DNA of 64,000 bases from Daucus carota subsp. sativus (Eukaryota > Streptophyta > Magnoliopsida > Apiales > Apiaceae). Position 1 is the stretch's first letter, and each line of letters opens with the position of its first letter. Where the stretch lies: contig NC_030385.2 of the NCBI RefSeq assembly GCF_001625215.2, forward strand, positions 45,471,598 through 45,535,597, read 5' to 3'. This document shows positions 1 to 64,000 of this stretch, piece after piece. A model generated the notes under the pieces. It was not told the DNA's origin. It did not search any database and worked only from the letters and a program-made list of their open reading frames with translations. Both the position numbers and the translations under genes were made by a program.

Positions 1-119
1 AGTGGATGCAACAATGTTCAACAAAGTAATACAGAGAACAAAATTCTGCAGACAGAAGTTTAAAGAAGCAGTATAGGAATATGTGACAAACCGACACACT
101 AGAGTGTAGAGAAATTAAC

Positions 120-2570: not shown

Positions 2571-2648
2571 GGCTGCTGATGCTGCTTAAGTAGAAGACTT
2601 TGTAATAATTCAGAAACACCAAGTCATGTAAGAGATGTAGTTTATATA

Positions 2649-3983: not shown

Positions 3984-3992
3984 TTTTAATAA

Positions 3993-4194: not shown

Positions 4195-4518
4195 AAGTGA
4201 TATAATTTAAAATGCCATTCATATTTATTTTTAAAAAGCATATGACTTGTAACATATGTTACTGATTAATCGATTACACTTCGATTTGAATAAAAAATTC
4301 TGATTTATAAAAAAAATTTCACGAAAAATTTGAATGAATAAATCACTTAATTAGTTATGATTTCCGATTTTTAAAACTTTTTGATACATGCTTTTCTTTC
4401 CGGCTAAAAGCCATTCTCCATGCCACTAAACTTATTTGACTTGTATAAATACATGTGATCACCCCATCCTCTAGAGCACCCACCTTACAATTCTGTGCCA
4501 CATTTTAGAAACCAAAAC

Positions 4519-15862: not shown

Positions 15863-29566
<13,704 letters not shown>

Positions 29567-35698: not shown

Positions 35699-37125
35699 TT
35701 GATCTTCTATTTCTTTAACCTAATTCACCTGCAGAGAGAGACAGAGAGAGAGGGAGAGGGGAGAGAAAGGTTGCTCACCAAATACAATCCAAACTTCTAC
35801 AAGAGCCAACAGAGTAATCCACTATATTTATAGTGCGTGTACATATGTGTGCTCGATAAATTTTGAGATTTGGATTTTGGGGGAAAGTATGGATCTGTGA
35901 CCCGATTATATATTTTAAAGGGAAATTTGTAAAAGTATTTGTTTGTAAAAATACCGGGTAATTGAAGTTAGCAGTATAGTCTGTGTTCTAAAATAATAAA
36001 TATAAATATATTTGTTAATAAATAATCAATACAATAATAACTAAATAATAAATAATATTTTAAGATTTTAAATACATCTGATTTTCATTCCAATTAATTT
36101 CCGATTTTTCATTAATCCTAAATCGGTAGCTCAACGGATTAACGCCGATTCCCGATTTCTATAACACCGAATATAGGTAATTTATGGTTAGTTTTCATGT
36201 TATTGTGTTTGTTGCAAATTAAATTGTATCGTATTTTTTGTAATAACTTTTATAATTTCGATATTTTAAAGAAAAAACCTATTTATAATCAACATATATG
36301 AAGATATTAATGTTTTCCATGTTATAATTGATATTCTAATTTATGTGAAAACAACAAGTGCTTGTTGAATTATCTGGTATCGGTTGTGAAAACGACAAAG
36401 TGCTGATTAACAAGTGCGGGTAAGTTTAGCCCCTGGTTGTAAAATGCTTGAAGTGCAATCATGTTTCATGGTCTTTTTGACAAGGGAAAGACAGAAGGAT
36501 GCACTGCATATACAACGGGAAGAAAGGTAGTGTTTCTGCCTTTCTGTGGCTTACAAAGCAAGAACATTCAAAACACTATATTACTGTAAGATACTGAAAC
36601 AGTGGCCAACACAAGCTACTCCAGTGCAATTTACAGACCTGAAGAGATGAAGTTTTATTTGTTCATAATCACGTCAACTTCTTTTATTCTCGTCCATATT
36701 GGAGCTAACCAACAAAGAACCATTGATTTATTGATCAAAAGCATGTCAGTTTTCCTCAGGTCATGCCCTATTCGTGCTAACCAGATAACAAAACATAAGG
36801 GCTTTATATCATGTTAACTTCTTCTCAGATCAAGCCCGTCGCCTGAAAACTACACAACTAAATAAACATTAAATGCCCAGAAATTTCTTTTCTGGCAAAA
36901 AAACACAGAGAAGAAGAATATGCCATAACAAAAATTATGTTTCTCACAACTGAATTTAACAGTCATTTCATGGAAATAACCGGCTTTACAAGGACATTGT
37001 TGATAATAAGCCACCAATAATTAAATAGATTAGGACCACACTAGCTGGGTAAGGAAATTCGGGAGTAATATGCTGGAAACATCTCTAAAACAATTACAAA
37101 AAGACATATTTAAAATCAAGTTCAT
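35699..37125. other. Spacer upstream of RS-rich gene, downstream of S20 gene
   Basis: A GA-rich run (35731-35768) lies just upstream of the RS-rich gene start, probably in its 5' leader. The rest is AT-rich with no gene, paired termini or RNA gene that I can recognise; the end nearest 37126 should be the S20 3' UTR. Confidence 0.5.
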
Positions 37126-39274
37126 TTAGGCAGTAAGCTCTGGAGATGGTGTATACCAACCATGGTGTATTTCAACAGCTTTCTTTCTTCTCGCAAGCCT
37201 AGACTTCCTTCTTGCTCCAGTGTTCCTGTGCAAGGTACCAACTTTCACTGCTTTATCGATCACTGAATAAGCTTCTGCAATCAACTTCTCAATGGTGATA
37301 ACTTCCTCCGCTTGTGCATCAGTTTTCTTTCTGAGCACCTCAAGAGATTCCAGAACCTGAACAAAAGAAATTGCAAATCAAAAATCAAAAAACTTACTTA
37401 TTTGTTAATTACTTGTTCATCCTTGCATACATCTACTTCAAGTGTATGTTCTTCCAGCAATTGGTCCCAGCGAGAAACTAACGTCAGATGAGAAGAAATC
37501 CCCCAAAGTTATTGCAGTACATACCAACCACAAATATAAGCTTGCAATGAAATATTAGCCTAAAGTATGTTAAGGAAAAATGTGTTTCTCTTACTCACTG
37601 AAATTAAATTTTGCCAAAAAAAAAAACATGTGGCTGCATCAGGAGCAAGTGAGCAAGGTATAATATCATATAAAATGATATTTGACCTCAAGTCCTCAAC
37701 AATACTGCAACACTTTATTTATAATAACATTTCAAGATGGGCATTTACGGAAAGCAACCAAGAAGCTCGTCGTTCCTTACTTCCTTAGCATAGACCAAAA
37801 TCAACATCACTTTTACCAGTGGCAGAACATCAAAAAAGGCGACCACTGGTTTTGTAACTACATCAATAAAGGCAAGTGTTGGTTTTGGAATATACTTTAC
37901 TCTCATTTATCTGGCCAGTGGAAGATGGAACAGATCATCTTTCAGCTTCTTGCGAATTTGTTTCACTCAATGACAAATCAACACGATGAAACCGAATGAG
38001 GGCGAAATTCAGATGAAAAGTTGTTTTTTATTTAGCTAAAAAAAGAAAAAGAAAGAACTAATTGTTCAAAGGGACAAATCAAAGGTGCATATTCTTCATG
38101 AGCTGTGTACTCCATTCAATTGAATTGAACATCGGCACCTTTCCTTTCAAATTTATTGGCATTTATCCTATACATGTGACCGACAAGTGAAAATACCTTT
38201 AAGTCTTTTACCAAGCAACATTATGAAAACAATAGTGCAGCAACACAAGTAGTTGTACTGAAACGCTGTAACTTCACACATAGCATAGATTTACTCTAAA
38301 CTAAGATACCAAAAGTAACAGTGATAGTTTAGGTTCTTTCAGTGAAATAACCCTCTTATCCAATTTCCATCAAGGTGTTTTTAAATGAACTCAATGCCAT
38401 GCACAAATATGTATCAAGACAGATATAAGTGAGTATACAACCAATCAAATGATCTAACAGTGTCAATTTTAAATTTGGTGGTACTTGAAAACTCTATGAT
38501 GGAAAAATGCATAAGAACTGAGACAACATCCCACAATTTTAACAACTATAAATAACAATACAAATTAATATACGAGAAACCAATAAGGCCTAATGTCAAT
38601 AACATATCAAACTCGAGATTACGAGAACATTGAGCTAAACCTAAACCTCCACACAATATTTATCCTAACAAACATTTAGCGAAGTTTGTTAACCATAAAG
38701 CAATCACATTAGCCGGAAACACTTCAACTCTAAACATCCACAACTTAATCATACACAAACACACCAAATTGCAATGAAATTTTCAAGAATTAAGCTAATT
38801 CAAGGAATACAAAAACACATTACTTGCAAACAAAATTTAATTTAGGCAAAATCAAGAAAAAACCACCTTCTTCATTCGGGTTCGAACTTCTGACTTGTGG
38901 GCTTTATGATAAATCCTCCTCTTCTCAGACTGCCTCGCTCTCTTAGCAGCTGAATCAGCCTTCTTGGTAGGCCCAGCAGCTTCACACACAATCAGCTGCC
39001 CAGTTTGCCTCTTAACAGGCCTTATAGACACAAAACCTGCACAAATTCAAAAACCCAAATGCTAAAATACTTATAAGTAAAATGGGTCAGCAAAAAATGA
39101 GATTTTTCAAGTACCTGTGGAGAAAGCATTGAAAGAAGTGTTGGATGAAAACCCAAGAGGCCTAAATGAAGCACAAGAATTGGGGTGAGTTTTGGTGGTG
39201 TTGAGTGATAAAGATTGAATCTTTGAGGAAATGGTCCAGCAAGAAGATGAGAGGCACTGTGCTGCTACTGCCAT
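37126..39274 (-). CDS. RPS20: Chloroplast 30S ribosomal protein S20 (bS20c)
   Basis: Three exons, 39274-39115, 39036-38867 and 37356-37126, all GT-AG and in frame, giving 186 residues. It begins [20 protein letters not shown], a Ser/Thr-rich, acid-poor sequence of about 70-75 residues that fits a chloroplast transit peptide. The mature part starts near [20 protein letters not shown] and follows the bacterial S20 pattern: basic helix [20 protein letters not shown], then [19 protein letters not shown] and [19 protein letters not shown]20 is a three-helix protein that binds 16S rRNA in the small plastid subunit. The 1.5-kb intron 2 has no obvious element. A Stowaway MITE lies about 205 bp upstream of the start codon. 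Confidence 0.95.
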
Positions 39275-39392
39275 TTTTGAGTTGAACCCTTTGATTGGTG
39301 CTGTTTCTTGGTGTTATATTGTGTTCATTGCCTCATCTTATCTACATTTTACAGTAGATGATGGAGTTGTGTTTCGGGTCGGATGTGGCGCC

Positions 39393-39412
39393 CGGATCCG
39401 GATCCGGATCCG
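39393..39412. repeat. Short GGATCC tandem repeat
   Basis: Three to four consecutive CGGATC units within about 120 bp upstream of the S20 start codon. It is GC-rich in an AT-rich surrounding and similar in motif to the GGATCC-rich stretch near 43937. Confidence 0.7.
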
Positions 39413-39480
39413 GACCTGGTTAGACGAGAATATGTTTTTTTTAGGAAATCGAGATAGTAATTCTTTTTATTAATTTGATA

Positions 39481-39717
39481 CTGCGTGCGTCCTAGTCAAC
39501 GGTATACATTGGGTGGGGGGCGACACACATTTTAATACTTTGATATAATATAATTTTATAAATTATTTTTAAGATTTTTTTAATAAAAATATAATATTTA
39601 TATTTTATAAAAAAAATTAAAAAAAATAAGTTGTAGAACCTGTTTTATAAGAGTTTTAAAAAGCGTGCGTGCCGAGTAGTGAAAAAGAAACGTATACAAT
39701 TGAGTAGGACAGAGAGA
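39481..39717. mobile_element. Stowaway-like MITE upstream of S20 gene, 237 bp
   Basis: Left end GTCCTAGTCAACGGTATACA and right-end complement GTCCTACTCAATTGTATACG. TA flanks both sides (39479-39480 and 39718-39719). Length and internal pattern match the other Stowaways here. The outer bases diverge from CTCCCTCC, so this is an older copy. Confidence 0.7.
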
Positions 39718-41043: not shown

Positions 41044-42728
41044 TTAATTAAACGAGGGTCTCCAAATGCAGTCGAGTTCAGTGAGTCCCGGCTTCGGTGT
41101 CTCCATCGCCGGGAAGTTGTCGTAGTTGACCGGCGGGAAGAAGAAGCTGGGCTGGTGGAGATTCTCTTCTAGTGATCTGAGGCTGGGGAAGGTGGAGGAG
41201 GGCGGCATTGGGGTGGGGTCCATTAGCGGCGGAGGGAGGCCGCCGTCGAAGAGGGTGTGGTAAGTGCTGAAGCCGCCGGGGGCGGCGGAACTGGAGAAAC
41301 AGGGCACGTGCTCGTAGGTGATCACGTGATCAGTTGTTGTTGCTGGTGGTGGAGGTGGTGTGAAAGGGATGGAGGAAGATGAGCTGATTTCTGAGTGAAA
41401 GTGGCTGCTCATGCTGGAGCTTGGTCTTTTTTCTCCGGCGGTGGCGCCGCCGGTTTTTTTGAAGAGCCGGGAGATGACCCACTCGTCCTGAAAAATGTGA
41501 TTAATGTTAGTTGAGTGGCGAGGATTGTTAAAAAGATTTGTGAGTGGCTCTAGGAAAAAGTAGGTTTGTGGATGTGTAGATATGTTGAGTTGACATGACT
41601 ATGTAAAGATGAATTTACAAGTAGTGTAGGTGTGTAGAGTGCTAAAAAAAAACATGATATTTTCTCTTTAGATTTGATTTAGGTCAGATTCTAGCTTACA
41701 TGCACATTTTAGATATGTTAATAGTAACATAAAACCTGAAACAACATTACCCTAGTTCCTAGCTAAGAACTGTAACAAATACTGTCCCTAGCCCTTGCTT
41801 GTGCAGTAACTCTGAAGATCTCTCTCCCTCTCCCCCATCTCTCTCTCTCTCTCCTTCTCCCTCCCCCCATCTCTCTCTCTCTCTCTCCTTCTCCCTCTCC
41901 CCCATCTCTCTCTCTCTCTCTCTCACTATCTCCCTCTCCCTCTCCCCCCATCTCTCCCTCTCCCTCTCCCCCATTTCTCTCTGTGTGCGCTAGTGACATA
42001 TGATGAGGCATTTTATACAGAGATAGCTTGAGTAATAATATATGGATGTGTACCTTAGAGGTAGTAGAGAGGTAGTGGTAAGCAAGCTTGCCATCAAGGC
42101 GAAACTCATGCATGACCCAGTTGGTCTTCTCTCCTTTAGGAGCACGGCCTCTGTAGAACACTAGGGTTTTCTTCATCCCCACCAGAGACGAAGTCTTCGA
42201 GCTGTAAATCTCCCTGTCTTTCCCTGTGGCCTTCCAGTACCCCGCTTCTGTCGCCCTGTTTGTCCTCAACCCTGTTGGGTACTTCCTGTCCCTCAAGCTG
42301 TAAAAGTACCACTCTTTCTCCCCCATCTTTGCTTTCTCTACATTCACAAAAAACAAACTCAACTGTAAATAATTCAACAATAAAGAGAAAAACTGAACAA
42401 AAGATGCTGACAACGTGTTGGTGCGGTGGTTGAGCTCTCGTACCCCTTACGGGAGGTCAGGAGTTCGACTCTCAGATGTGCGTGTCTAACCAATTAAAAA
42501 AACTGAATAAGTGAACTTCACTATGTTAGTTAGTAAGTTACCAGGAAGGTGCCATGGTTCACATTTGTTGAGGTCAACTTGGGCAATGGCTCTGCTACTG
42601 AAGTTGTGATCAAGGACTTTCTTGAGGAGGTAGTAAGTGATGAGTTCCTCATCTGTTGGGTGAAATCTGAAGCCTGGAGGCAGCTGAGCATCCCCATTGT
42701 TCTCCATACTTTGGTAGAAATGGTCCAT
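41044..42728 (-). CDS. NAC-domain transcription factor
   Basis: Three exons, 42728-42542, 42337-42054 and 41487-41044, in frame with GT-AG borders, giving 304 residues. The start used is [12 protein letters not shown]; Met8 is an alternative. The NAC DNA-binding domain spans about residues 16-170 with all five subdomains: [19 protein letters not shown], the [16 protein letters not shown] stretch, [18 protein letters not shown] with [40 protein letters not shown] with WVMHEFRL, then [11 protein letters not shown]. The exon structure (splits after LP and after SK) is the canonical NAC one. The C-terminal activation region is Ser/Pro-rich with PPPPP and an aromatic end DCIWRPSFN. It falls within the NAM/CUC-like branch, near NAC058/NAC100-type proteins, but exact orthology is not resolved. 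Confidence 0.94.
41821..41983. repeat. CT-rich minisatellite in NAC intron 2
   Basis: About four irregular units of CTCTCTCTCCTTCTCCCTC plus CCCCCATCT, roughly 35-45 bp each. The purine-rich minus strand reads through as a spurious long frame. Confidence 0.85.
42398..42497 (+). mobile_element. tRNA-derived SINE in NAC intron 1
   Basis: About 100 bp with an A-box-like GGTGCGGTGGTTGAG (42420-42434) and a B-box-like GGAGTTCGACTCTC (42460-42473), then a short unique part and A-rich tail. AAAAACTGAA repeats at both borders (42388-42397 and 42498-42507), a target duplication of 10 bp (13 with one mismatch). It is inserted opposite to the NAC gene. Confidence 0.75.
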
Positions 42729-46996: not shown

Positions 46997-48789
46997 AACC
47001 GAGAAACACATAAATGATGAGTTCAGAACCGAAACTGACCACACCAGGACAAGCAGACACATTCTTAATCACATTAACTAACACTCACGTCTTGTAATAA
47101 TCAGATGCTTAACGAATTACAAAAGGAAGATGCAATTAATTAATTAATCGTACAATTAATCAAAGAAGGAAACAGATGATGCATGCATGTATCAATTCAG
47201 CAATCACATCCATCCGTCACGATCGAAGCAAAGGAAGAAGCTGGTAAAAATAAGACAGACGGCTCATGCATTTTCGCAAAGATGATGGACAAGCAAGCAA
47301 GAGCTCAAAATTAACTATCTCTTCGACCAGTCCCTTTCTCTCTTTCACTGCCTCCCTGTCTTGTGCATCTTTTCAAGTTTGCCAAAGCCTTCTTCCAAGT
47401 GTACGAGTACCTTTTCCCAGTTTCATTGCCCCCAAACAACTTATACTCCTTTCCATATAGGTCTCCAGGAGCGTATTTGCATGGGCTTGTATCTCTGGAA
47501 TTTAAGTCATTTTCGATTATAAACTGAAGATATGTGTTTATATAATAAATCAAAGTCAATTTAAATTTAAAAATAATTAAAGTTAGAAGTCAATAGAATT
47601 TATATTTTTAGTTAATTTTCTTTTTTAGTAATGATCAATTCCAAAGTAAAATAAATAATCCATCAAATTTATTTTTTTAATAATTTATAAATTATCAGTA
47701 ACATAAATACTTAAATAAATAATTTAAAATGAGCCAGCCTGACTTGTTTTGAAAAAATCCGGATTTTTTTCCCGATCTGGATCCGGCTCGAACAGATGTT
47801 TTGTGCATCTCTAAATCACTATCCAGTCTGGTCTGTTGTGTAATTCTTAAATAATATTTATTTATATTTAAACAAGATTATTATTATAATCGCACACGAA
47901 GTTTGAGTTTGGATTCACAATTTTCTAAAGAATCAAACTGGAGCATACAAGGATTTTGACCTAAAAATGGATTTAATTATCTCTGTTATTTTTAGGGATT
48001 TCGATTCTCATTCTCTAAATTATAAGATGGACACTGATATCTTATTTCTCCAATATCATTCACGATCCACTTAGCAGGGCCCGTTTCTAAATACTTTAGC
48101 TAATGGCCCAAACCGTACTATTGGGTTAACTTTCATGAAGTTATTTTCATGTCCTCTTGGTTTGTGTTCTATGTTTTGGTTATTAACAGTTTAGCCCTTA
48201 AATTTGTTGAAATGGACACATATCTTCTCAAACAAAAAATATCTTACATTTGTACAAATTGACCCATTTCCGTTGAGCTCAGACTGAATTTTGTCAGCAA
48301 AATACTGAAAAGAGGCCCTTTGAATTATAAATATTAATAATATGATCCCATAATATTTTTTTTAAATGGTGCATATGAATATCATAAAAAATCAATTATA
48401 CTAGTTAAAACAGGCTGTAATATAGAAAATATTTATATTTCAACGAAAGTTAAATGAATAATGTATATATTGATAACAAAGTGTTTGTTTGACAGCACTG
48501 CTCAACGCTGGATAGTAAAAAGGTGGGGCTCAAAACTATTTTACTGTATGGGTACTACGGCAGTATTTCGATTTTTTCATATTTTGAGTTATAATATAAA
48601 AAATAATAATTTTGGGCAGATTTGTTATAAAATCTGTGATAGGTTCTTACAAACACTGAATACTAATTTTTAACATATTTTTTCAAAAAAGAAAAAATAT
48701 TTTCAAATTTATCAAATACTTTTTATATGTTTTTCAATGAACCTTACTACTTAGGAACTTGCATATATGATCAGATGATGGTAACTAAA
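46997..48789. other. Gene-poor stretch with one candidate exon
   Basis: AT-rich sequence apart from the weak candidate exon at 47311-47510. A GGATCCGG-like motif occurs near 47775. Nothing else recognised. Confidence 0.4.
47311..47510 (-). CDS. Orphan candidate terminal exon, unrecognised
   Basis: On the minus strand the acceptor TTCCAG ends near 47499, followed by an open frame that includes SPCKYAPGDLYGKEYKLFGG and, later, RYSYTWKKALANLKRC, then TAG. The composition is protein-like and the GC content is above its surroundings. No upstream exons were found on the minus strand before the transposon nest and I do not recognise the family. It could be a gene fragment, the end of a gene broken by insertions, or chance. 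Confidence 0.22.
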
Positions 48790-49159
48790 TACTCCCTCCG
48801 TTTCAATTTACATGTCCACTTCGAAGAAATTTTTTTGTTTCAAATTACTTGTCCACTTCAACTTTCAATGCAAAATCATATTTCCAAAGTTAATTCTACT
48901 CCACATATCTCTTATTTATATTTCCTAGATCAATCCCACTCCACATATTTTGATCATTTAATGCAATTAATTTATGAACAACAACTTTTCTTAAACTGTG
49001 TGATTTTTTTAAGGGCTTGGCTAACCTGTGCCCTCAGGGCACAGGTTAAGAGCATTTATTACTTCTAGTTTTTTGTATATCATGCATTACAACTGGATAC
49101 ACATTAACTACTCATCAATAAATTCAAATGCTCATATTTATAAAAGTATATTTGATATT

Positions 49160-52100
49160 TGTAACGACCTCAAATTTCAAGTACGTAATTACGCAATTAT
49201 TTATTTAATTATTCAATTTTGCTCAAGTCAATGATTTAAGATATTAAATATTTGTTTCAGATTATTTTAAGAGCGAAAAATAATAGTCAAGATGGTATGA
49301 TAATTTTTTAAGGGCGCGAATTTATTCTGACGACTAGATATTAGTTAATAAGCGTCCGATAAATATAGATCGATAGTTAGTAGCGACGCGGGATTAACGC
49401 GAAAAGTTGTATATAATATATGTATATATATATATATATATATAAAGAAAAAAAAAATCAATAGGACTTGGATTTATAAATAAATAAGATTTATGTCCTT
49501 GTTAGTAAATATGGTAGACTTTTTCTTATAAAAAGCTTAAAGAAATACCAAATTAAGCATAATGAATAACTTAGAGAGAGAAAGCTCAAGAGAGAGAAGT
49601 GATAGCTAAGAAGGAAAGCAGGAAATTGAGAATGAAATCATGAGGAATTAATAAAAGTTTCAAGCCTAATTAAGGTATAAATTCATCACGCTCCATCTAA
49701 ATTTACTACAAGATATATTAAGTGTTTTGTGTCTGCACCATATTCACAAGACCACACACAGGACTGTAACTTTCTTTTTACTGCTATATTCACTAATTTA
49801 GTAGGAGATGTGGATGTGTTTTTGCTCAAATTGTATATTTACATATATAAGTATGATTTACCCCAAAACTCTCAAAAATTAGGGTTAGGGTTCTTAGGAT
49901 AAATTGGGGCTTTTGTTGATTTGATTGTTGTTTGATGAGATTGGATGAGGGATTAAGTTGGGAAGGCTGAGTAGAGCAAATCGGAGGAGGGATCTCAAGT
50001 AAAGGAGGTCGGCGCCCCGCTGCGGCCACCCGCCAGCGGCGGCCTCCGGCGTCGGCGGAAGGGCACAATGAAGAACGGTGAGGAGTGGATTGTGCACGTA
50101 TGGGATGAAAGAGGTTTGTACGGGTGAGGAATGGGTAGAGCTCCTCTGCCATGTCGGTGGTGGCGGCGGAGCGCAATGGAGCAGAAGAGAATGTGAGAGA
50201 GAGAGAGGAGGGAGAGGGTCGTGCAGTGGTGAAACCGCCGGAGAGATTCCGGCCGGCGGTGGGTGAGGGAGGAGAAGGTAGGATGAGGGAGATGAAGGAG
50301 GGGCAGTTTGGTAATTTGATTGTTAATGGGTTCTGATAGTTAGTCTGCTGGGTAAGAATTTGTTTCCGGATTGTAAATTAAATTACGTATTTGGATTCCT
50401 TGCGAAAAAATGGATGGAATAGACTTTTGAAGCGTTGAAAACGGATTAGGAATGAGGGAGATATTAGCGGTCAAAGTTTCACCATTAGAGTTGACTTCGG
50501 GGAGAGAGAAAGTGTTGGTGGGTGTGAGGAAGATGATGATGATGTGGCAGTTTCTGATTGGGTAGAATATTAAAAATTAGTATTTAATTAATTTGAGGGA
50601 TTAAATAATAGAATGAGTAAAAGTGTAAAATATGAGAGTTTAAGTAAATGATTTTGCGGATTTAATGGTGTAGTCTAATTTTGGATTCGAGAAATATTAA
50701 ATAAAATTCTACATTGTGTGATTTAGTAAATAATTAATGAATTTATGGATATGGTTAATGAATTGGTTGAGGCAATTTAGAGTAAGTGAGATTTTGGGAA
50801 ATCGATATAATAATAAGAATGGAACAAGTTAGAGAAATTTATGTGGATTATTGTCGCGAATAAATAAATTATAAGTAGGGATTTATAATACAACATTTAA
50901 AGATTTTGATTAACAAATGATTCAAGTGGATTACTTAGATTAATAATAGGGATGTCATTATTTAATTGAAGTCAATTATTCGAGGATTTAAGGGATAATC
51001 GATAGAAAAGAGGGATAAGATAAAAATAATCTAAATATTATCAAAAAGGGGAGCTATAAATTATGAATTTATAATAGATTAATCGAGATTATTATTTAAA
51101 GTGGAAATTACTAAATTTGTTATTTCATGTGGTATAGAATATTTATTATCCGGAAGGCGAGCTCAATTATCCAAATTGAGACAGGAATATTTTTATTTAC
51201 CAAAGGAAGCCAGGCAAGTTCACTTAATTCCTTCTCTTGATGTGCCAAAGTTGTGTTATTGATTTATCAAATGTGATTATGTCTGATAATTGATTCTATG
51301 CTTGAAACCCGATACTTTAATATATTTGAATATTTCGAGAAGATCGGGGAGAGACGGACACTAGAAGATTTGACATTTGTTCATATTATTATTAAAACAA
51401 ACTTTCTTAGTTATCCAAGTCCACTCATTGTTCTGGGTTGACTCAGTATTTTGGAAAACCAGAAATACCATTAATTTTCAAATGTTTAACCTATCATACT
51501 TTTTGAAATGATTATTCTATTATGAAATCTTTGCCTCGTTACAGAATTCATATTCAATATTTGAATACAACCTTGCTCGCAATTGAGAAGTCTAGTTCAT
51601 ATCTTTGAGTTATTGTTTCAATACGAACATAATTCAATTGAATTGTTCCAACCCTTGATTATTCGCTAATATTGCTACTTTGGTTGTCGAGATCCCTATC
51701 TTTTGATTCGCTCTTTCTTATGAAGTTTGATGAACCCGATGTTCTCTTCAAATAGCTTATTATTCCTTCTATACACCTTAAGGTGGATAAACTGCTTGAT
51801 TATTGATTTCCTCTTATGTTTCCTTATTCTCGTTCAATCTGTTAAACTTCTATTCTTTAATTAGAACAATGATTAATCGATTTTATACAAGGCTCGTTAA
51901 CCATGTTCGGTTCTATGTTATTGTTATGGGATGTTATGATCGGATTACTTGTCTTCATAATCCGAGAGGTATTAAATTCTGAATTGTGAGGATGCATTTG
52001 TTCGCATTCTTGTGAGAAAGGGGAAGATTTATTCAATATGAAGTGTGCCAATTTGTACTCGAGGGATGAATTTAATAAACTGGTCAACACGAATGATTTG

Positions 52101-52717
52101 CATTCGTGGAAGTGGTGGAAAATGTAAATTCTCTATGTGGGGTAAATTTGAGGGTTGAAAATGATAACCCTTATGCTAGCAAAGTGTGGAATTTGTGGGT
52201 GGCGCCATTCGACAGTCGCGATCAGGCTGCGAGGGCGACACAGGGTGGTACTCGCTCAATGGCGGTGATCGAGCCTTGTGTGAGACCACTGGGATGGAGA
52301 CCAGTAATTGATATTTTATTCTTTCTTGAACTCTGTATGTGTGTTTGATTGCAGCATTTCCTTTGAATCTGCTTTATTGACCTGTGTAAATCCTTTTGTG
52401 ATTTATCTTGTGATGATTTGTGTCATAGTGGACTTGCTGAGCATTCAATTGCTCATACTTGCAATTCTTTATTTTCTCTAAACAGTAAAGACAGAATAAT
52501 GCACGATTGAGAAGAATAATCCGGAAGCGCACAATAGCACGAACAAGGACAAGGCGTGAGGCTGTGGCAAGACGAAGGGTGGGAAGACTTGTTCCCGTGA
52601 CGAGGATAAGTTTAATATCGACCTTGGACTTGTGGGGCAAGGTATGCAATGTAAAACAGGTATGTTGAAGGGGTGTGACGGTCTAGATCTGAGGGATACG
52701 GATCTGGGGGCGTTACA
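49160..52717 (+). repeat. 5' LTR of the gypsy element, 3,558 bp
   Basis: TG...CA ended. Contains a TATAAAA box at 49527-49533, a (TA)n run near 49422-49442, a telobox-like TTAGGGTTAGGGTT near 49880, and a GC-rich island (about 50000-50290) in otherwise AT-rich sequence. Differences from the 3' LTR that I could see are G/A at 51156, T/G at 51758, A/G at 52283 and a 4-bp shift in the (TA)n run. Confidence 0.92.
49527..49533 (+). promoter_or_regulatory. Putative TATA box of the 5' LTR
   Basis: TATAAAA in the 5' part of the LTR, with pyrimidine-rich sequence before it and a GA-rich tract about 40 bp after. The same site in the 3' LTR is at 59151-59157, where a MITE follows within 40 bp. Confidence 0.4.
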
Positions 52718-52721
52718 GATT

Positions 52722-52733
52722 TGGTATCAGAGC
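52722..52733 (+). other. Primer-binding site (initiator Met tRNA)
   Basis: TGGTATCAGAGC, complementary to the 3' end of plant initiator Met tRNA, begins 4 bases after the 5' LTR, as in many plant gypsy and copia elements. Confidence 0.9.
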
Positions 52734-54733
52734 TGTGTTATATTCTTAGGACACAGGAAACCTAGGAATATAACGAGAGAGTGAGACAATAATACAAGAG
52801 ATAAGATATACGTATATGATAGTTATACATCTACGAGAGCAGGCTAGGGTATACATGAAACCCAGAAATCTTTAGTGGGACATCAAACCCCATAGTTATG
52901 ATTACACATATGTGTATACAAGTATCTTTAAGATAAGAAACTTAAGGTGGCATTGCTTAATTATCCGTAAAGATGTTAATATCCAGTTTTCTTCGAGGAC
53001 ACCCTTTTACACCCTATCCTTATGAATAATATTGGTAGTGTCGCATCAGAAGAAATTATGATTACTGATGGTAATTCAGGGAACACGAATCATTGAGCCT
53101 TCACCATTTGAGATTATTGGTTACCTAACCTATTAGTTACCTAGTATTTATTGCTATGCCAGATGGATAGGCATCAATTCTACCTCATAAATTTTTGTCA
53201 GAAATAACCTCTACAATATCATTGACTACCCAGATATTTACCTCCATATCTTGTTCTTTTATTACCTATATCATAGGGTAGATATGATCAAGTGATTGTT
53301 GGATATACTTAGACACTATCAGCTGACTTTTCCAAAGGCTACATCATTCTCTTTTGATTCCACTAAGATGTTGACTCCTGATCGGTACCAATTCGAGTTC
53401 CATACCTTTATCAACTCCACCTCTATTGTCGAGATTCTTTTCTCATATTTTGCAATTTTCCGCCCATACATATATATTCATATACCAAGCCATGAGCTCG
53501 AATGTTACAACCAGAGATTTCTACCCCCAAAGACTTCTGCTCCCATCTCATGTTATATTAAGATAACGATCTTTCTATTACAAGGTTCCTTGTTTTCTAC
53601 TTTGAAACTGTTTTATCAATTTCTGTTCCAATTTCCACATCAATCTCAACACCAAATTTTTATTCTAACACCAATCAGTTCAAGTTCTTTTTATGCTCCA
53701 TATGTTGGGAGCGAGACAGTACCATTCTCGGCACACTTCACATTGTATGATAGTATGAGATGTTATCGAACTATTACTTTGAGTTTTAGTTTTTAATGAC
53801 GTATTGTTGGGGATACGAGAATTATATATTTGTTCAGGAGAGCTCGGATTCCTGGCTCGGGTAATTATGATAAAGGAATCTATCAAATAGTTATTTATGT
53901 ATTCGAGAGACTTCGGATAGATATTCAACAGACTTTGTCGACGAGCTTCGGACACATTGGAGCCATTGTTGTTTATTGAAAATTACAAGAATTTTGGTAT
54001 AAAGTTACAAAGATATTCAAACATCGACGGTTCGGATTTCTTTGGTATAATTTGATCTTTTGTAAGATAAAATGTATAATTTATGAGCATCTCAAGTTCT
54101 ATTTATGTTGTATATGATTCATGACTATTGACATTGTACGGTAACGAGCATGAGAGCCTTGCATTTCCTTATTATTACAATGCAGATTCGTACATAAGAT
54201 CTTTCGAGCAAATAGGGATGTAGCTAGACATCTTATTACCCATGATTAAATTAATACCTTAGTGCTTATTAGGACAGTTGTGTCTTCGGATAATGACAAA
54301 ATGGTCCTCGAACTTTGTGTGCATATGATGAAGACCAGCGGAAATGGACAGTTTTATTTTTGAGATGACTTATGCATGATCTTTTGTACTTAAAAATTGT
54401 TCAATCCTTGAGCGCGATATCTTGTATCACCTTTTTATTAAAAAGCTTTCACATACCTACCTCTTTTCAAAACCGCTTTTATTTCTAAAACCACATATCT
54501 TTTGCTAATAAATGTGAAACTTTGGGCATGTTGATATACTTCCTTGAACAATTATTAAACCTTAACTGTTTTTACCATCTACCCTTTGTTTCATAGACAA
54601 AACCCTTGTTAAACATCTATTAAACAATTTTACACCATTATAAACAGTTGCTATATTTTGCATTCTTGCATTTCAAATAAACCTCTACACCATGTGATAG
54701 TAACCTATTTTGTTCCTCTCTTATAGAAACAAT
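52734..54733 (+). other. Long untranslated leader of the gypsy element
   Basis: About 2 kb between the primer site and the first gag-like ATG at 54734. AT-rich and without a recognisable protein domain; the 166-codon frame at 53296 starts at TTG and has no domain signature. Confidence 0.5.
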
Positions 54734-57700
54734 ATGGACTCTGAAATTGGTCAACACCAAAAAAAAAAAAAAAAAAAAAAAAAAAACCACCAGAGAATAT
54801 TCCAGCCAATCCTGATCTGATTAAAACGCTCCTTGATCTCTTACAACAACATGCTCCAAACCTATCAACCCATACTAACGAAGCATCAATCGACCAACCA
54901 CCTAAATCATTTGTTATATTTTAAAAAAAAAAAAAACTTTTAAGTTTATACACCCCATGAGTTGAAAGAAACCATGGATCCTATTGAGGCTAGGACCTGG
55001 TTGAAAGAAATTTAAAAAGGGATTTTGAGATTGTGGGAGTTGAGGATGATAAGGAAAACTCTATTTGGCAATATATGTGTTAAACATGTAAGCTAACTAT
55101 TGGACGCTAAAATGGGTCTAGAAGGGACTAGTTTTATGACGTGGGAATGCTTTACGAAATTGTTCCTATAGAAACATTTTCCTAAATACTATGAGAATCA
55201 TGTAACTTAGATTCTGATTATGAAGCTAAATTTACATAACTTGCGAGGTTCGTACAACACTATGTTGATACTAATGAAAAGAGAGCCCGACGTTTTCAAC
55301 AAGTATTGAAACCCTGGATCCTGAGCAGCGTAGCTATTTTGAACTTAACAATTATACGACTCTCGTTCAGAAGACTGCTATCGTAGAAAGCGAGAGTGAG
55401 CTATGCAACCGTGAAAAGAATGGCAAGAAATGGAGGGCACCATAACCTGATCATATCCTAGGAAAGAAGATATGTGACTAGAATATTTAGAAACTTTTTA
55501 TTAAAAGGCTATTCAACAAGTATGGAACACTTCAAATCAGAAATCGAGTAAGCCGCGGAGGGAATCAAAGGTTCAGGCCTCCACAAATTTCAAATCTACT
55601 TCAAGGAGGAACACTATTACCAGAATGCAAAACATATGGGAAGAGGCATTCATTTCCATGCTATCAGGAATCTACATTTGTTTTATCCGCGATCAGAAAA
55701 GACATTATGATTCAAAATGCAAATAGAAAGCTGTTACTCGATTCAACTCTCAAAAGATGGGCCACGTGGCCAGGGATTGTCGAGCGCGACGTAAAGAAAA
55801 CGCTATTCTGAGATTATCAATACCTATAGAAAGAAGCAAGCCAATATCGTGCACCTTTAATGTGACAATGAAAGACGCTATAGTCGATGACGACATTATT
55901 TCATGTACGCTTATAATAAATCCTTAAGATGCTTGTGTGTTGATTGCTTCCGGCGCTATCAAATATTGTATTTTGTAAATTTTATGCAAAAAGTTGGGAA
56001 TTGTTCCGATACCTCTAGAAGAATCTACGAATGTGGAAATAGCGAATCAGGATGTGAATTATGTGGATCAAGTGTATCCTAGTTGTCAAGTAACGATTCA
56101 AAATAAATTTTCAAAGTAGATTTAATTCATTTTAATTTAGGGGAGTTTGACGTGATATTTAGAATGGAATGGTTAACGAGTTATGACGCTCAAATTTATT
56201 GTAGACGAAAATGTATACGTGATAATAGTGGAAAGAGAGTGATTGTAAAAAGTGAAAAGCAAGATAAGAAAATTTTGATCATGATATAATCCGATGTCAG
56301 GCCTATTTGGCGCACGTGATAGATACAAAGATATAAAGTACTAAAATGGAAGAAACCTCAATGGTAAATGAGTATATGAATGTGTTTTTTAAGAGTTACC
56401 GAGATTACCCCAAATAGGGAGATTGAGTCCACTAGAGTCCTTGTGCCAAGTACTGAACCTATATCAAGAGCTCCCTATAGAATGGTACCAACATAAATGA
56501 AAGAGTCAGCAACAAGAATTATTAGAAAAGGAGTTATTAGGCCAAGTGTATCCTCGTGAGGATTTGCGGTGTGGTTGTTAAGATTAAAGATGGAAGTATA
56601 AGGTTGTGTATTGAATTTAGGAAATTGATTAAGGGTGACAATTAAGAATAAGTATAATTTTCCAAGGATTGATGATTTGTTTGACCAATTGCAAGGAGCA
56701 ACTCACTTCTCTAAGATTGATATAAGATCTGGATACCATCGACTTAAATAATTAAGCCTGAAGATGTGCCTAGGACAACTTTAGAACCAGATATGAACAT
56801 TATGAGTTCTTAGTAATGCCTTTTGGATTAACCACTGCACATGTAGCCTTTATGGATCTTATGAATAGTGTATTCAAGAAATATTTGGATAAATTTGTGA
56901 TTATTTTTCTTGATGACATTCTGATTTACACTAAAACACGAAAAGAGGATGCAGAGCATCTAAGAAGCACATTGAAAAAAATTGAGGAAGGAAAACTTGT
57001 ATGTGAAAGTTTTAAAATGCGAGTTTTGGTTGGGGCATTACAATTTCATAGACATGTAGTTTCAAAGGATGGTATATCGGTAGACCCTGCAAAGATTGCA
57101 ACTCATTAACACGATTGGCCAGAAAGGGACAAAAGTTTGAATGGACGCCAAAGTGCGAGGAAATCTTTCGAAGAATTAAGAAAAGACTTACAACGACTAA
57201 TGTATTGGCGTTACCTGATGAAAGTGGCAACTTCTTGATTTATAGTGATGCGTCTCACAAAGGCTTACGATATGTATTGATGCAGCACGAGAAAGTAATT
57301 GCTTACGCCTTTAGACAACTAAAAGACTATGAGCTCGGGTATCCTACCCATGATTTAGAGTTAGCGGTGATTGTATTCGCATTAAAGACTTGGCAATATT
57401 GTCTATATGGTGAGAAATGTGAGATATAATTGACCGTAAGAGTTTGAAGTATTTGTTCACAAAAAAAAAATATATATATATATATATATTGAATATGAGG
57501 CAGAGAAGATGGTTAGAATTGATCAAATGTTACGATGTACCATTAGTTATTGACCTGGCAAAAGGAAATGTAGTGACGGATGCGCTAAGTCGAAAAGAAA
57601 GATCAAATATGCTAACCCTACCTTTAGAATTAAGAAAGGAAATAGAAAGTCTAAAGTTGGAAATAAAAATTTGAGTTTAGAAGGAGAAAGACTTTACGAG

Positions 57701-58770
57701 ATGTTGTTACAACCTGGAAAACTAGGGGAAAAAAAAAATTAAGAGATGTCAAGAGAAAGTGATGGAGAAGCAAATGAAGGAATTGACATAAGAAAAGATA
57801 CTATGTCTAGAGGATGAGAAAGGAATTCAGAGATTTGCTAATAGAATTTGGATTACTAGAGTATTGGAGTTGAAAGGGGAGATTCTGAGTGAAGCACATG
57901 ATTCAAAATATTATGTACCCCGAGAAGTATGAAAATGTATCAAGATCTTAAGAAACACAATTAGTGACCAAACATGAATAGGGAGATTGCAGATTGAGTA
58001 AGAGTTTGACTTGTCAAAGGATGAAAGAAGAGCACTAAAGATCAAGCGGATTAATACAATCTTTAGAGATTTCGGACTAAAAATACGAATGTAATATAAT
58101 GAATTATATTGTGGAGTTACTGTGAATCCGATCAATTATGATGCCATTTGGGTTATTATAGACAGACTCCCAAAATTAGTTCATTTCTACCAATTAGTAA
58201 AAAGTACACCATCGAATGACTGGTAAGTGTGTATCTAAAAAAATGGCGACTCGACATGGAGTCCCAGTAGCAATAATGAGATGTAGATGCAAGATTCACT
58301 TCGAGGTTCTACCGAACTTTTCAAGAATTGTATATGGATTAAGTTGGACCTAAGTACTGCTTATTATCCACAAATTGATGACATAGAGAAGGAACGATTC
58401 AAACAGTTGAGGAGATGTTAAAAGTTTGTTCGTTAGATTTCAAAGGGAAGTTGGGATTATCATTTGCTCTTAAGTGGAATTCGCTAGTAAAAACAGTTAT
58501 CATTCTAGGAGTGGGATACCTTCTGAAACCATATATGGTAGAAAATGTAGATCGCCACTTTGTTGGGATGAAGTTGAAAATAAGAATATTCTGGAACCAG
58601 TACAGACCATAGATTAAAAGTTTCAGGAGCTAAGGAATAAGAAAGTAAAGTTAGTTAAAGTGATATGGCAAAATCAAGCTGTAGATGAAGCAACATGAGA
58701 ATTAGAATACGAAATGAGGAGGAACCATCCTAAATTGTTAAGCGCTAGTCATGATTCCGAGGTCGGAATC
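54734..58770 (+). pseudogene. Broken gag-pol of the gypsy element
   Basis: Signs in order: a gag-like start at 54734 followed at once by a run of about 27 A; the second half of a CCHC zinc knuckle (GHVARDC) at 55760-55780; a protease active-site region at 55940-55957 where the catalytic Asp codon reads Ala (LIASGA); reverse transcriptase from about 56440 with the catalytic FLDD at 56906-56917 inside an open segment 56816-57109; RNase H at 57115-57429 (YSDASHKG); integrase pieces including HGVP near 58257 and YGRKCRSPLCWDE near 58531-58570; and a Tekay-like C-terminus near 58640-58740. Stops and frameshifts separate nearly all of these, so no functional polyprotein can be made. Confidence 0.88.
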
Positions 58771-58773
58771 CTT

Positions 58774-58787
58774 TAAGGAGGAGAGAC
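58774..58787 (+). other. Polypurine tract
   Basis: Purine-rich AAGGAGGAGAGA directly before the 3' LTR, the expected second-strand primer. Confidence 0.8.
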
Positions 58788-61700
58788 TGTAACGACCTCA
58801 AATTTCAAGTACGTAATTACGCAATTATTTATTTAATTATTCAATTTTGCTCAAGTCAATGATTTAAGATATTAAATATTTGTTTCAGATTATTTTAAGA
58901 GCGAAAAATAATAGTCAAGATGGTATGATAATTTTTTAAGGGCGCGAATTTATTCTGACGACTAGATATTAGTTAATAAGCGTCCGATAAATATAGATCG
59001 ATAGTTAGTAGCGACGCGGGATTAACGCGAAAAGTTGTATATAATATATGTATATATATATATATATAAAGAAAAAAAAAATCAATAGGACTTGGATTTA
59101 TAAATAAATAAGATTTATGTCCTTGTTAGTAAATATGGTAGACTTTTTCTTATAAAAAGCTTAAAGAAATACCAAATTAAGCATAATGAATACTCCCTCT
59201 GTTTTTTAATATATGACGTTTGACTTTTTGGCACACACTTTTAAGTGCTTTGACCGGGTAGTTAAAAGCATTATTTTTGAATTTTTTTTTTTCTGAATAA
59301 AAATATGCGATCAAAACTTTAATTCACAAAAAAAATCAATTAAAAATAATAATGTTTACTATGTGGTCAACTCACCTAAAGGTACGTGCCCAAGTCAAAA
59401 GTGTCATATAAAAAAAAACAGAGGGAGTAACTTAGAGAGAGAAAGCTCAAGAGAGAGAAGTGATAGCTAAGAAGGAAAGCAGGAAATTGAGAATGAAATC
59501 ATGAGGAATTAATAAAAGTTTCAAGCCTAATTAAGGTATAAATTCATCACGCTCCATCTAAATTTACTACAAGATATATTAAGTGTTTTGTGTCTGCACC
59601 ATATTCACAAGACCACACACAGGACTGTAACTTTCTTTTTACTGCTATATTCACTAATTTAGTAGGAGATGTGGATGTGTTTTTGCTCAAATTGTATATT
59701 TACATATATAAGTATGATTTACCCCAAAACTCTCAAAAATTAGGGTTAGGGTTCTTAGGATAAATTGGGGCTTTTGTTGATTTGATTGTTGTTTGATGAG
59801 ATTGGATGAGGGATTAAGTTGGGAAGGCTGAGTAGAGCAAATCGGAGGAGGGATCTCAAGTAAAGGAGGTCGGCGCCCCGCTGCGGCCACCCGCCAGCGG
59901 CGGCCTCCGGCGTCGGCGGAAGGGCACAATGAAGAACGGTGAGGAGTGGATTGTGCACGTATGGGATGAAAGAGGTTTGTACGGGTGAGGAATGGGTAGA
60001 GCTCCTCTGCCATGTCGGTGGTGGCGGCGGAGCGCAATGGAGCAGAAGAGAATGTGAGAGAGAGAGAGGAGGGAGAGGGTCGTGCAGTGGTGAAACCGCC
60101 GGAGAGATTCCGGCCGGCGGTGGGTGAGGGAGGAGAAGGTAGGATGAGGGAGATGAAGGAGGGGCAGTTTGGTAATTTGATTGTTAATGGGTTCTGATAG
60201 TTAGTCTGCTGGGTAAGAATTTGTTTCCGGATTGTAAATTAAATTACGTATTTGGATTCCTTGCGAAAAAATGGATGGAATAGACTTTTGAAGCGTTGAA
60301 AACGGATTAGGAATGAGGGAGATATTAGCGGTCAAAGTTTCACCATTAGAGTTGACTTCGGGGAGAGAGAAAGTGTTGGTGGGTGTGAGGAAGATGATGA
60401 TGATGTGGCAGTTTCTGATTGGGTAGAATATTAAAAATTAGTATTTAATTAATTTGAGGGATTAAATAATAGAATGAGTAAAAGTGTAAAATATGAGAGT
60501 TTAAGTAAATGATTTTGCGGATTTAATGGTGTAGTCTAATTTTGGATTCGAGAAATATTAAATAAAATTCTACATTGTGTGATTTAGTAAATAATTAATG
60601 AATTTATGGATATGGTTAATGAATTGGTTGAGGCAATTTAGAGTAAGTGAGATTTTGGGAAATCGATATAATAATAAGAATGGAACAAGTTAGAGAAATT
60701 TATGTGGATTATTGTCGCGAATAAATAAATTATAAGTAGGGATTTATAATACAACATTTAAAGATTTTGATTAACAAATGATTCAAGTGGATTACTTAGA
60801 TTAATAATAGGGATGTCATTATTTAATTGAAGTCAATTATTCGAGGATTTAAGGGATAATCGATAGAAAAGAGGGATAAGATAAAAATAATCTAAATATT
60901 ATCAAAAAGGGGAGCTATAAATTATGAATTTATAATAGATTAATCGAGATTATTATTTAAAGTGGAAATTACTAAATTTGTTATTTCATGTGGTATAGAA
61001 TATTTATTATCCGGAAAGCGAGCTCAATTATCCAAATTGAGACAGGAATATTTTTATTTACCAAAGGAAGCCAGGCAAGTTCACTTAATTCCTTCTCTTG
61101 ATGTGCCAAAGTTGTGTTATTGATTTATCAAATGTGATTATGTCTGATAATTGATTCTATGCTTGAAACCCGATACTTTAATATATTTGAATATTTCGAG
61201 AAGATCGGGGAGAGACGGACACTAGAAGATTTGACATTTGTTCATATTATTATTAAAACAAACTTTCTTAGTTATCCAAGTCCACTCATTGTTCTGGGTT
61301 GACTCAGTATTTTGGAAAACCAGAAATACCATTAATTTTCAAATGTTTAACCTATCATACTTTTTGAAATGATTATTCTATTATGAAATCTTTGCCTCGT
61401 TACAGAATTCATATTCAATATTTGAATACAACCTTGCTCGCAATTGAGAAGTCTAGTTCATATCTTTGAGTTATTGTTTCAATACGAACATAATTCAATT
61501 GAATTGTTCCAACCCTTGATTATTCGCTAATATTGCTACTTTGGTTGTCGAGATCCCTATCTTTTGATTCGCTCTTTCTTATGAAGTTTGATGAACCCGA
61601 TGTTCTCTTCAAATAGCTGATTATTCCTTCTATACACCTTAAGGTGGATAAACTGCTTGATTATTGATTTCCTCTTATGTTTCCTTATTCTCGTTCAATC

Positions 61701-62578
61701 TGTTAAACTTCTATTCTTTAATTAGAACAATGATTAATCGATTTTATACAAGGCTCGTTAACCATGTTCGGTTCTATGTTATTGTTATGGGATGTTATGA
61801 TCGGATTACTTGTCTTCATAATCCGAGAGGTATTAAATTCTGAATTGTGAGGATGCATTTGTTCGCATTCTTGTGAGAAAGGGGAAGATTTATTCAATAT
61901 GAAGTGTGCCAATTTGTACTCGAGGGATGAATTTAATAAACTGGTCAACACGAATGATTTGCATTCGTGGAAGTGGTGGAAAATGTAAATTCTCTATGTG
62001 GGGTAAATTTGAGGGTTGAAAATGATAACCCTTATGCTAGCAAAGTGTGGAATTTGTGGGTGGCGCCATTCGACAGTCGCGATCAGGCTGCGAGGGCGAC
62101 ACAGGGTGGTACTCGCTCAATGGCGGTGATCGAGCCTTGTGTGGGACCACTGGGATGGAGACCAGTAATTGATATTTTATTCTTTCTTGAACTCTGTATG
62201 TGTGTTTGATTGCAGCATTTCCTTTGAATCTGCTTTATTGACCTGTGTAAATCCTTTTGTGATTTATCTTGTGATGATTTGTGTCATAGTGGACTTGCTG
62301 AGCATTCAATTGCTCATACTTGCAATTCTTTATTTTCTCTAAACAGTAAAGACAGAATAATGCACGATTGAGAAGAATAATCCGGAAGCGCACAATAGCA
62401 CGAACAAGGACAAGGCGTGAGGCTGTGGCAAGACGAAGGGTGGGAAGACTTGTTCCCGTGACGAGGATAAGTTTAATATCGACCTTGGACTTGTGGGGCA
62501 AGGTATGCAATGTAAAACAGGTATGTTGAAGGGGTGTGACGGTCTAGATCTGAGGGATACGGATCTGGGGGCGTTACA
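58788..62578 (+). repeat. 3' LTR of the gypsy element, 3,791 bp with MITE insertion
   Basis: Identical to the 5' LTR apart from the differences listed there and a 237-bp MITE-plus-TA insertion. Without the insertion it is 3,554 bp. Confidence 0.92.
59193..59427. mobile_element. Stowaway MITE, 235 bp, inside the 3' LTR
   Basis: Ends CTCCCTCTGTTTTTTAATAT and complement CTCCCTCTGTTTTTTTTTAT; TA on both sides (59191-59192 and 59428-59429). The 5' LTR has the empty site GAATAACTTAG at 49564-49574 with a single TA, proving the insertion and its exact target. Confidence 0.95.
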
Positions 62579-63034
62579 ATATTTGTTTGTTCATGTATTG
62601 TATTATAATTCTAATCATTTATATCTTTTTAATAATATTTAAATAATAAAAAATTATAAATTTATTATTAATTATCAAAGTGGCTGTTTTTAGTTCGAAT
62701 ATTAGTGTATATGCAGGGGGGCCTCATTATTATTTGTGGATGAAATCAATTAAAAATTGTCATATAAAATATGACAAAAATATTATTCTATATTCTCACA
62801 ATTTTTTTGAAATAAAATAATATTTTATTATAAATATAAACTTGAAAGATAAATCAATAGTAGATAAGAGTTAATATTTTAATAAAATTTAAATGTTTTA
62901 CGTACATACACAGATAATCATGCAAGTTCAATGATAGTCAATGACATTTATTATGACTTATCCTATGCCCTGAGGGCACAGGTTAGCCACTCCGTTTTTT
63001 TAAAGAAGACATCTAATTTGAAACGGAGGGAGTA

Positions 63035-64000
63035 ACAAAATTATAAAATTCTACAAAGTACTACCGGCAACAAAATTGCACGAGATTTTGTCAGTAGAAT
63101 TAATTATAATTCAAGAATATAATCAACTGTAATCTTGACTTCATGTCTGCGTTCGAAGCAACTACTATACTAGAAGACAGGAGTATTACTAAAAATAAAT
63201 AACAATAATTAGGAATTATTCAACACTTGCTAATTCGTAACCCTACAATATCTGCATGACTGTTGATGTGGAGCCGAGATCTCTATCACCCAGTTGATCG
63301 AGTGAACGGATATAAAGGGCAGTGTATAATCAGCTGGACCTGCAGCCATCAAAATGTAGCTAGACTTGGTAATTGGTATATGTATCCAGCTTAATTAATC
63401 CATCCAGAGAATGTCCAAGTCTAGATGTCTAATTTGGTGTGTATAAAACTTGGTCCATCATTATATTTGTCTGCTTCGGACTAATCTAGAACCGATTGAA
63501 ATTCACTTGGAATCTAGCTCAGATATATTCTTTTGTAGTTTAATTATAAGCCAAGCAATTTCAATCATGAAAAAAAATTAGTTAAAAAATAAATTGACAT
63601 ATTAAAATTAAAAAATATATAATTTGTTTAAAAATTTCATACCTCAGAACAGATTAATGTTTCCTAAGAATCTGCTCAAATATCATTTTTTTCTAGTTTA
63701 ATTATGAGTTACAGCAACTCGGACCATCAAAAACTCCTATGAATGTCTATAACCGTCGAAATTCTACATAGATGTAACCGATTTGTAAAAATATTACATA
63801 TCATTTATTATCATATTAAAGTGATTAAAGTGATATATTCTATTTATAATAATTTAAAATATAAATAATATATTATTTTTAAATTATGTACAACCAATAT
63901 AATCAATATTATTTCTGGCAAAAAAAAATAAAAAAATATAACCAATAATATCAGAAGCAAAATGTCTCACAATGTCTCACAAGCTTCAGCAAATTTTATA
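63035..64000. other. AT-rich end of window
   Basis: No gene, RNA or paired repeat recognised. A short AATGTCTCACA unit is doubled at 63961-63982. Confidence 0.5.

Follow-up and report, generated by a model that had tools for sequence, protein, structure and literature searches.

Element architecture and insertion

The window is a stretch of 64,000 bp of Daucus carota subsp. sativus (C5:45471598-45535597), and relatives were searched in its own genome (441 Mb, 11 contigs). It contains a retrotransposon with near-identical long terminal repeats (LTRs) and a heavily decayed gag-pol region. The following parts were identified:

49160-62578, forward strand: complete LTR retrotransposon, from its paired LTRs and target-site duplication
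49155..49159, no strand: left target-site duplication ATATT, the same 5 bp flanking both element ends
62579..62583, no strand: right target-site duplication ATATT, a perfect match to the left one
49160..52717, forward strand: 5' LTR, 3558 bp, TGTAACGACC...GGGCGTTACA, direct repeat with the 3' LTR
58788..62578, forward strand: 3' LTR, 3791 bp including a 235-bp insertion, direct repeat with the 5' LTR
52722..52733, forward strand: primer binding site TGGTATCAGAGC, read from the sequence and beginning 4 bases past the 5' LTR
52718..54958, forward strand: non-coding leader, its 166-aa frame not being kept in the other copies
54959..58773, forward strand: decayed gag-pol (gag, protease, reverse transcriptase (RT), RNase H, integrase and a chromodomain-like end), from comparison with an open relative
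58753..58770, forward strand: short palindrome, also present, with no more than one central base changed, in copies C1 and C3 and in locus L045
58775..58786, forward strand: polypurine tract AAGGAGGAGAGA, read from the sequence, with a closely matching tract in C1, C3 and L045

Paired LTRs with TG...CA ends, the 5-bp duplication, the primer site and the polypurine tract together describe a single intact insertion. We take the primer site TGGTATCAGAGC to be of the initiator-Met tRNA type. Its motif and spacing are the same in L045, a locus of a related family whose reading frames are open (the open family).

The initial annotation had reported three substitutions between LTRs of 3.55 kb, and we obtained the same count over 3554 aligned bases (51156/61017, 51758/61619 and 52283/62144). 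The two LTRs also differ by a 4-bp gap in a TA microsatellite and by a 237-bp block present only in the 3' LTR, which had gone unmentioned; the BLAST alignment of the pair adds a fourth mismatch at the edge of this block. Given 3 differences in 3554 bases and an assumed rate of 1.3e-8 per site and year, the element would have inserted about 30 thousand years ago, with a wide error.

The block holds a near-palindromic miniature inverted-repeat transposable element (MITE), presumably of the Stowaway type:

59193..59427, no strand: Stowaway-like MITE of 235 bp, CTCCCTCTG...CAGAGGGAG, carried by the 3' LTR alone
49567..49568, no strand: empty TA site in the 5' LTR matching the MITE insertion, read from the LTR-LTR alignment

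A TA duplication brackets the MITE (59191-59192 and 59428-59429). Relatives at 91-98% identity were found at 39 other places among the 40 scored of 2750 candidates, and the closest among the matches listed is 98% identical (C2:43599905-43600140). As only the 3' LTR carries it, the MITE most simply inserted after the element did.

Near-identity between LTRs could also be an artefact of assembly or polishing, and several LTR pairs of the family (see below) indeed show 0 differences across 1.5-3.2 kb. We regard this explanation as highly improbable. The window pair retains its three substitutions, the 4-bp gap and the private MITE, and ten copies bear target-site duplications of their own. Four reference LTRs, which come from three copies and include one poor context match, agree on one ancestral base at two of the three substitution sites; the derived base lies in the 3' LTR at one of these and in the 5' LTR at the other. 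Three of the four references match the 3' LTR at the remaining site.

A decayed interior

The interior between the LTRs is 6070 bp long and contains no stop-to-stop frame longer than 166 aa. We compared its gag-pol codon by codon with open-family locus L033 in two stretches and counted 23 in-frame stops and about 36 frameshifting indels, numbers which vary with the alignment. The stops, the frameshifts and the lost protease Asp described by the initial annotation are thus all present. The recognisable remnants are:

55946..55948, forward strand: protease active-site codon, now Ala (ASG for DSG), from comparison with relatives
56774..57106, forward strand: RT fragment (Pfam RVT_1, E 7.3e-12) with the FLDD motif kept
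57052..57426, forward strand: RNase H fragment (Pfam RT_RNaseH_2, E 8e-25)
58618..58773, forward strand: integrase C-terminal chromodomain-like remnant with one stop inside, from by-eye resemblance to L045

In the Pfam scan of the interior RT and RNase H were seen only as fragments; there was also a protease match and a zinc knuckle match below its cut-off, and no match for the tested piece of the chromodomain-like remnant. The ASG triplet is common to the window element and its sister copy C1. In six other dead copies the Asp of the triplet is changed or the motif is otherwise lost, and some dead copies retain DSG. Judging from match coordinates, about 95 bp are gone at the RT-RNase H junction compared with most relatives, and C1, which aligns through this point unbroken, likewise lacks them.

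The order protease-RT-RNase H-integrase was read from the Pfam matches of the open relative and the collinear remnants in the window element. LARDs (large retrotransposon derivatives) and TRIMs (terminal-repeat retrotransposons in miniature) are defined by an interior without recognisable coding sequence, and the element is neither, as its gag-pol outline is still detectable. Based on the style of the LTRs and the primer site we assume a Tekay/Del-like lineage. In one survey 94% of chromoviruses, and no other group, carried a chromodomain at the C-terminal end of integrase (PMC6317226).

Relatives share the lesions

The genome searches scored 33 of 1350 candidates for the interior and 40 of 439 for the LTR, so that all copy numbers are lower bounds. 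Sister C1 (C1:19757662-19770884 with its LTRs) matches the full length of the interior at 92%. At least 14 further copies match at 77-84%, and four duplicated C9 loci at 78%. Eight loci from a first RT search (L001-L008) had no DNA match to the element and were discarded. The lesion comparison covered 15 copies, the window element and 14 relatives; neither L028 nor the duplicated C9 loci L023-L026 were among them. For L019 and L022 it was restricted to the first stretch, and for L017 and L021 to a part of the second.

All 15 copies are broken, with 13-33 in-frame stops and 18-40 frameshifting indels each, compared to 0-2 stops and 0-2 frameshifting indels in four open-family copies. Sisters with intact frames, the observation that according to the initial annotation would speak against its interpretation, did not occur among the 15 copies, and the omitted L023-L026 and L028 have no stop-to-stop frame above 162 aa.

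Many of the lesions are shared. The 23 stops of the window element recur in C1 in 16 cases and in C3 and C6 in 11 cases each; 15 have a counterpart somewhere among 11 more distant copies, and 2 were seen in any of three other open-family copies. C1 has exact counterparts for 23 of the window element's 36 frameshifting indels, C3 for 8 and C6 for 12, and 12 are also present in one or more of the distant copies. Two lesions in gag, a stop and a 2-bp deletion, were found in 14/14 relatives. Because lesions are common to the relatives, including these two that all 14 carry, the sequences indicate that the common ancestor of the compared copies was already broken, at least in gag.

Counted in the frame of the open relative, the third codon position accounts for 33.7% of the differences between the window element and C1 (60/178), 35.0% within the distant group and 39.1% between C3 and C6. 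Within the open family the share is 68.3% (six open copies). Differences in the dead copies are therefore spread almost evenly over codon positions, and the genes were dead while the family diversified. Rooting the gag-RT tree on the open family places a long branch between the dead and the open copies.

Near-identical LTR pairs in an old family

For C1 the two LTRs differ at 8/3554 positions (6 of them inside one 7-bp patch), for C3 at 1/3400 and for C6 at 0/3171, the first ~350 bp of the C6 LTR being left out of the comparison. For nine copies the LTRs were compared over about their last 1.0-1.5 kb only. Here we observed 0/1500 differences in each of L012, L015 and L018; 11 in L014, 12 in L013 and 6/1499 in L021, all over the last ~1.5 kb; 3/1109 in L027 (one LTR is ~210 bases longer); and 5/1039 in L016. 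The most diverged pair is that of L022 (68/1500, 4.5%); the partner LTRs of L016 and L022 were presumed from position, and the presumed 3' LTR of L016 is interrupted. In 12 of the 13 measured copies, which exclude the compared copies L017 and L019, the pairs are thus at most 0.8% different.

Perfect 5-bp duplications were found in 10/10 copies for which both flanks were read (the window element, C1, C3, C6, L012, L013, L015, L018, L021 and L027; left out were L014, L016 and L022). As the initial annotation had proposed for a family that moves non-autonomously, many stops and frameshifts are common to sisters that each have a target-site duplication of their own and a nearly identical pair of LTRs. 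The nearest relative of each compared copy is 4.9-16.2% away in the dead coding region.

These numbers could also be explained by old insertions whose interiors decayed in place while gene conversion within each copy kept the LTR pairs alike, in which case the LTR clock would be wrong. The LTR pair is closer than the nearest relative in all 13 measured copies, and no near-identical relative of the window element appears among the matches listed. LTR gene conversion is reported to be common in plants; possible signs of it were described for 25% of LTR pairs, with a larger share where genomes are smaller, and longer LTRs were more similar (PMC7251063), which makes conversion a rival to be taken seriously. 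The sole clearly diverged pair, that of L022, has its presumed partner ~53 kb off, and conversion may be rarer there. However, if the copies were as old as the split from their nearest relatives, ten perfect duplications in ten copies would have a probability of ~0.007, a value calculated for independent copies and with mosaicism left out of account. The MITE of the 3' LTR has been neither copied nor erased. Most stops are shared, and decay was therefore not private to each copy.

We also considered solo LTRs as remnants of parents. The partnerless LTRs listed are at most 91% identical to the window LTR, and because of this distance none of them represents a recent parent. One of them (C4:35231600-35235900) is 87% identical with matching TTTTT flanks; the flanks of another (C3:44626000-44630560) are mismatched.

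Conserved ends and mosaic copies

To locate conserved segments we computed the divergence between 4 near and 9 distant copies in windows of 20 bp. Across the final 20 bases of the LTR and the first 60 of the leader it ranged from 2.5 to 7.1% per window, and the leader window 101-120 showed 4.6%. The leader from 161 to 2100 averages 17%, with only 1 of 97 windows as low as 5%, and the LTR windows 20-79 bases ahead of the LTR end diverge by 21-34%. The LTR end, the primer site and the leader start are conserved, and codon positions are nearly flat (see above). The polypurine region was compared by eye only, in four sequences (window element, C1, C3 and L045). Conservation around the primer site is the pattern that would be expected for RNAs which are still being primed and integrated. 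Amid such drift it suggests continuing replication and counts against conversion of old LTRs.

Several copies are mosaics. L012 and L018 differ at 32/1274 positions over leader bases 1-1250 and at 492/3000 over 1251-4300 (p 6e-46), and L016 resembles L012 up to about leader base 1200 and L018 from about 900 onward. From position 2100 on the window LTR is modestly nearer to C3 (56/1458) than to C1 (82/1431), whereas the window interior is clearly nearer to C1 than to C3. In the first 1 kb of the LTR the window element is unrelated to C3 or C6; the LTR pair of C3 matches over its full length and that of C6 over the part compared. On C2 and C4, open-family copies have LTR starts that are 80-82% identical to the first 123 bp of the window LTR. 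The mosaics count against copies that decayed in place and would be explained by template switching between co-packaged RNAs, although ectopic conversion could also produce them. On balance we consider LTR conversion of old copies, which the initial annotation had named as the alternative, quite unlikely; it is weakened by the ten perfect duplications, and no near-identical parent is among the matches listed.

A related family with open frames

From gag onward the window interior and the open family share 72% DNA identity. L033 has one frame of at least 1316 aa with matches to gag, protease, RT, RNase H and integrase, the integrase core match being below its curated cut-off. The C-terminus of the neighbouring unit L045 shows a strong SH3-like integrase match and a weak Pfam Chromo match (E 0.0042, below its curated cut-off). 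Its LTR-end and primer-site region and its polypurine region are nearly identical to those of the window element. For an open-family copy on C4 we found 0/912 differences between the LTR ends, and because of this the open family has been recently active.

The initial annotation had suggested looking for an intact partner with matching LTR ends, primer site and integrase. Open frames, similar LTR ends, the primer site and integrase domains are indeed found in the same genome. The match is partial, however, as most of the LTR does not align and the C4 copy has a variant primer site.

It is also conceivable that the RNA was packaged by a recently intact member of the element's own subfamily, since lost or unsampled, instead of by the open family. 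In gag-pol the divergence from the open family amounts to 25-27%, and a large part of the open-family LTR cannot be aligned with that of the window element, which speaks for this alternative. Yet the open family keeps similar ends, and stops and frameshifts occur in 15/15 copies, some of them common to all 15, with little codon-position constraint; for this reason no coding member is seen on the sampled branches. We therefore judge a lost intact relative unlikely.

Four of the open-family loci (L033, L034, L035 and L045, C3:25040712-25078700) are arranged head to tail at steps of ~10.7-11 kb. In L045 a single LTR lies between two neighbouring interiors, as if the units shared LTRs.

Interpretation

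We interpret the element as a recently inserted member of an old, non-autonomous family of Ty3/gypsy chromoviruses that was mobilised in trans, with a probability of roughly 0.83. The initial annotation's proposal that a dead copy was moved by proteins of another element is supported by the shared lesions, the young LTR pairs and the presence of an open related family. Under this model gag-pol would have been broken already in the common ancestor of the compared copies, and the family RNA would have retained its cis-acting sequences, chiefly the stretch from the LTR end through the primer site to the leader start. The proteins of another element would package, reverse transcribe and integrate this RNA. 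The best candidate for the helper would be the related open family, which resides in the same genome, has 72% gag-pol DNA identity and carries similar ends. We infer in addition that dead lineages may recombine with one another during reverse transcription, perhaps also with helper-type elements, and thereby swap the 5' part of the LTR (the U3 region).

Several observations weigh against this interpretation. The C4 open-family copy with identical LTR ends has a primer site that differs by one base, and the bulk of the open-family LTR fails to align with the window LTR. The helper role of the open family is a proposal drawn from sequence resemblance. Between dead-family groups the third-position share is 36.9-39.5%, slightly over one third, which may reflect a short coding period before death or an effect of the alignment. 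The LTR pair is closer than the split from the nearest relative by 9-462 fold in 12/13 copies and by 2-fold in L022 (zero LTR differences were counted as one). Recent transposition would produce such a gap only if copies turn over fast or are mostly rare polymorphisms, and LTR gene conversion predicts it as well. No parent or near-identical sibling is among the matches listed, where the best interior match is 92% and the best foreign LTR match 93% over the matched stretch. Either a fast turnover with mostly rare polymorphic copies or LTR gene conversion could account for the missing parents.

More tentatively, and at slightly less than even odds, mobilisation in trans can be extended to a coding-dead chromovirus lineage that has lived as an obligate parasite of a distantly related helper for ~10 million years, a figure taken from the depth of the gag-RT tree and an assumed rate. 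Such a lineage would persist at low copy number through constant turnover rather than bursts. The surviving copies would for the most part be young, mosaic and orphaned, their parents no longer being in the genome; the 5' LTR block would be swapped between lineages, and selection would hold only the ends.

Other features

A G+C-rich patch lies inside the LTR at ~49900-50300, reaching 62% in a region of ~30%, with long antisense frames. A search in which the first 1031 LTR bases served as the query, with 40 of 85 candidates scored, gave no support for capture of a host gene in this patch. Apart from the LTRs of the window element and of C1, the scored matches were confined to LTR starts (first 120-211 bases), an AT microsatellite and stretches of ~70-100 bases. 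A conserved leader protein was considered for a 166-aa frame at 53296-53793 and rejected: the whole frame is kept in none of the other copies of the 15-copy set, the longest leader frame elsewhere (159 aa) is in a different frame, and codon positions of the 53296-53793 frame are flat. Rfam returned no structured RNA at gathering thresholds for 48000-64000, and around the palindrome at 58753..58770 there was no unusual RNA fold, the result being no better than shuffles (z -0.45).

On C9 a similar family copy recurs at a spacing of ~59.8 kb on both strands (L023-L026 and L019; 16.60-16.67, 19.68-19.75 and 21.72 Mb), pointing to a large inverted and tandem segmental duplication. The window contains other imperfect direct or inverted repeats, 70-84% identical, at 27851-28097, 41823-41982, 4603-7923 and 32872-39661.

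Relation to known systems and significance

Non-autonomous LTR families with degenerate coding regions that are moved by partners are already on record, and the present family is a further member of this class, probably a chromovirus. A limited literature search did not find the same family described. It is unusual in its low copy number, its deep divergence and its young copies without close relatives.

Angela of wheat is a Ty1/copia element; the present family, in contrast, is Ty3/gypsy and consists of few very divergent copies. The passages cited describe non-autonomous RLC_Angela sub-families whose coding regions, as here, are highly degenerated with many frameshifts and stops, whose copies are similar in size to autonomous ones and spread beside autonomous partners, and whose LTR tree conflicts with the interior tree, a likeness to the window family (PMC9744471). 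They are >85% identical to their partners (PMC9744471), compared to ~72% in gag-pol for the proposed partner here. In barley RLG_Derami, Sabrina and Surya are likewise described as non-autonomous Gypsy families; the gag-like region of Derami is interrupted by stops, and homology to the proposed partners peaks at the primer site, both as here (PMC5738225). For mouse VL30, which is mammalian and retrovirus-like and thus differs in lineage and host, the cited part of the report gives full-length copies with multiple stops in gag and pol, as here, identical LTRs with target-site duplications in 42/86, and one member reported to be retrotransposition-competent (PMC4859993). Arabidopsis Athila is described with families of non-autonomous copies only, recombination between families and some very recent insertions, again as here; many non-autonomous Athila copies keep selected frames (PMC2410132), whereas none were found in the window family.

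The family is a natural experiment on the division between the cis requirements of an LTR retrotransposon and the functions that can be supplied in trans. After long drift the LTR end, the primer site and the leader start are conserved and gag-pol drifts almost freely. The age of the LTRs and the age of the family are different clocks, 9-462 fold apart in 12/13 measured copies, so that this genome offers a way to test rapid turnover against LTR gene conversion.

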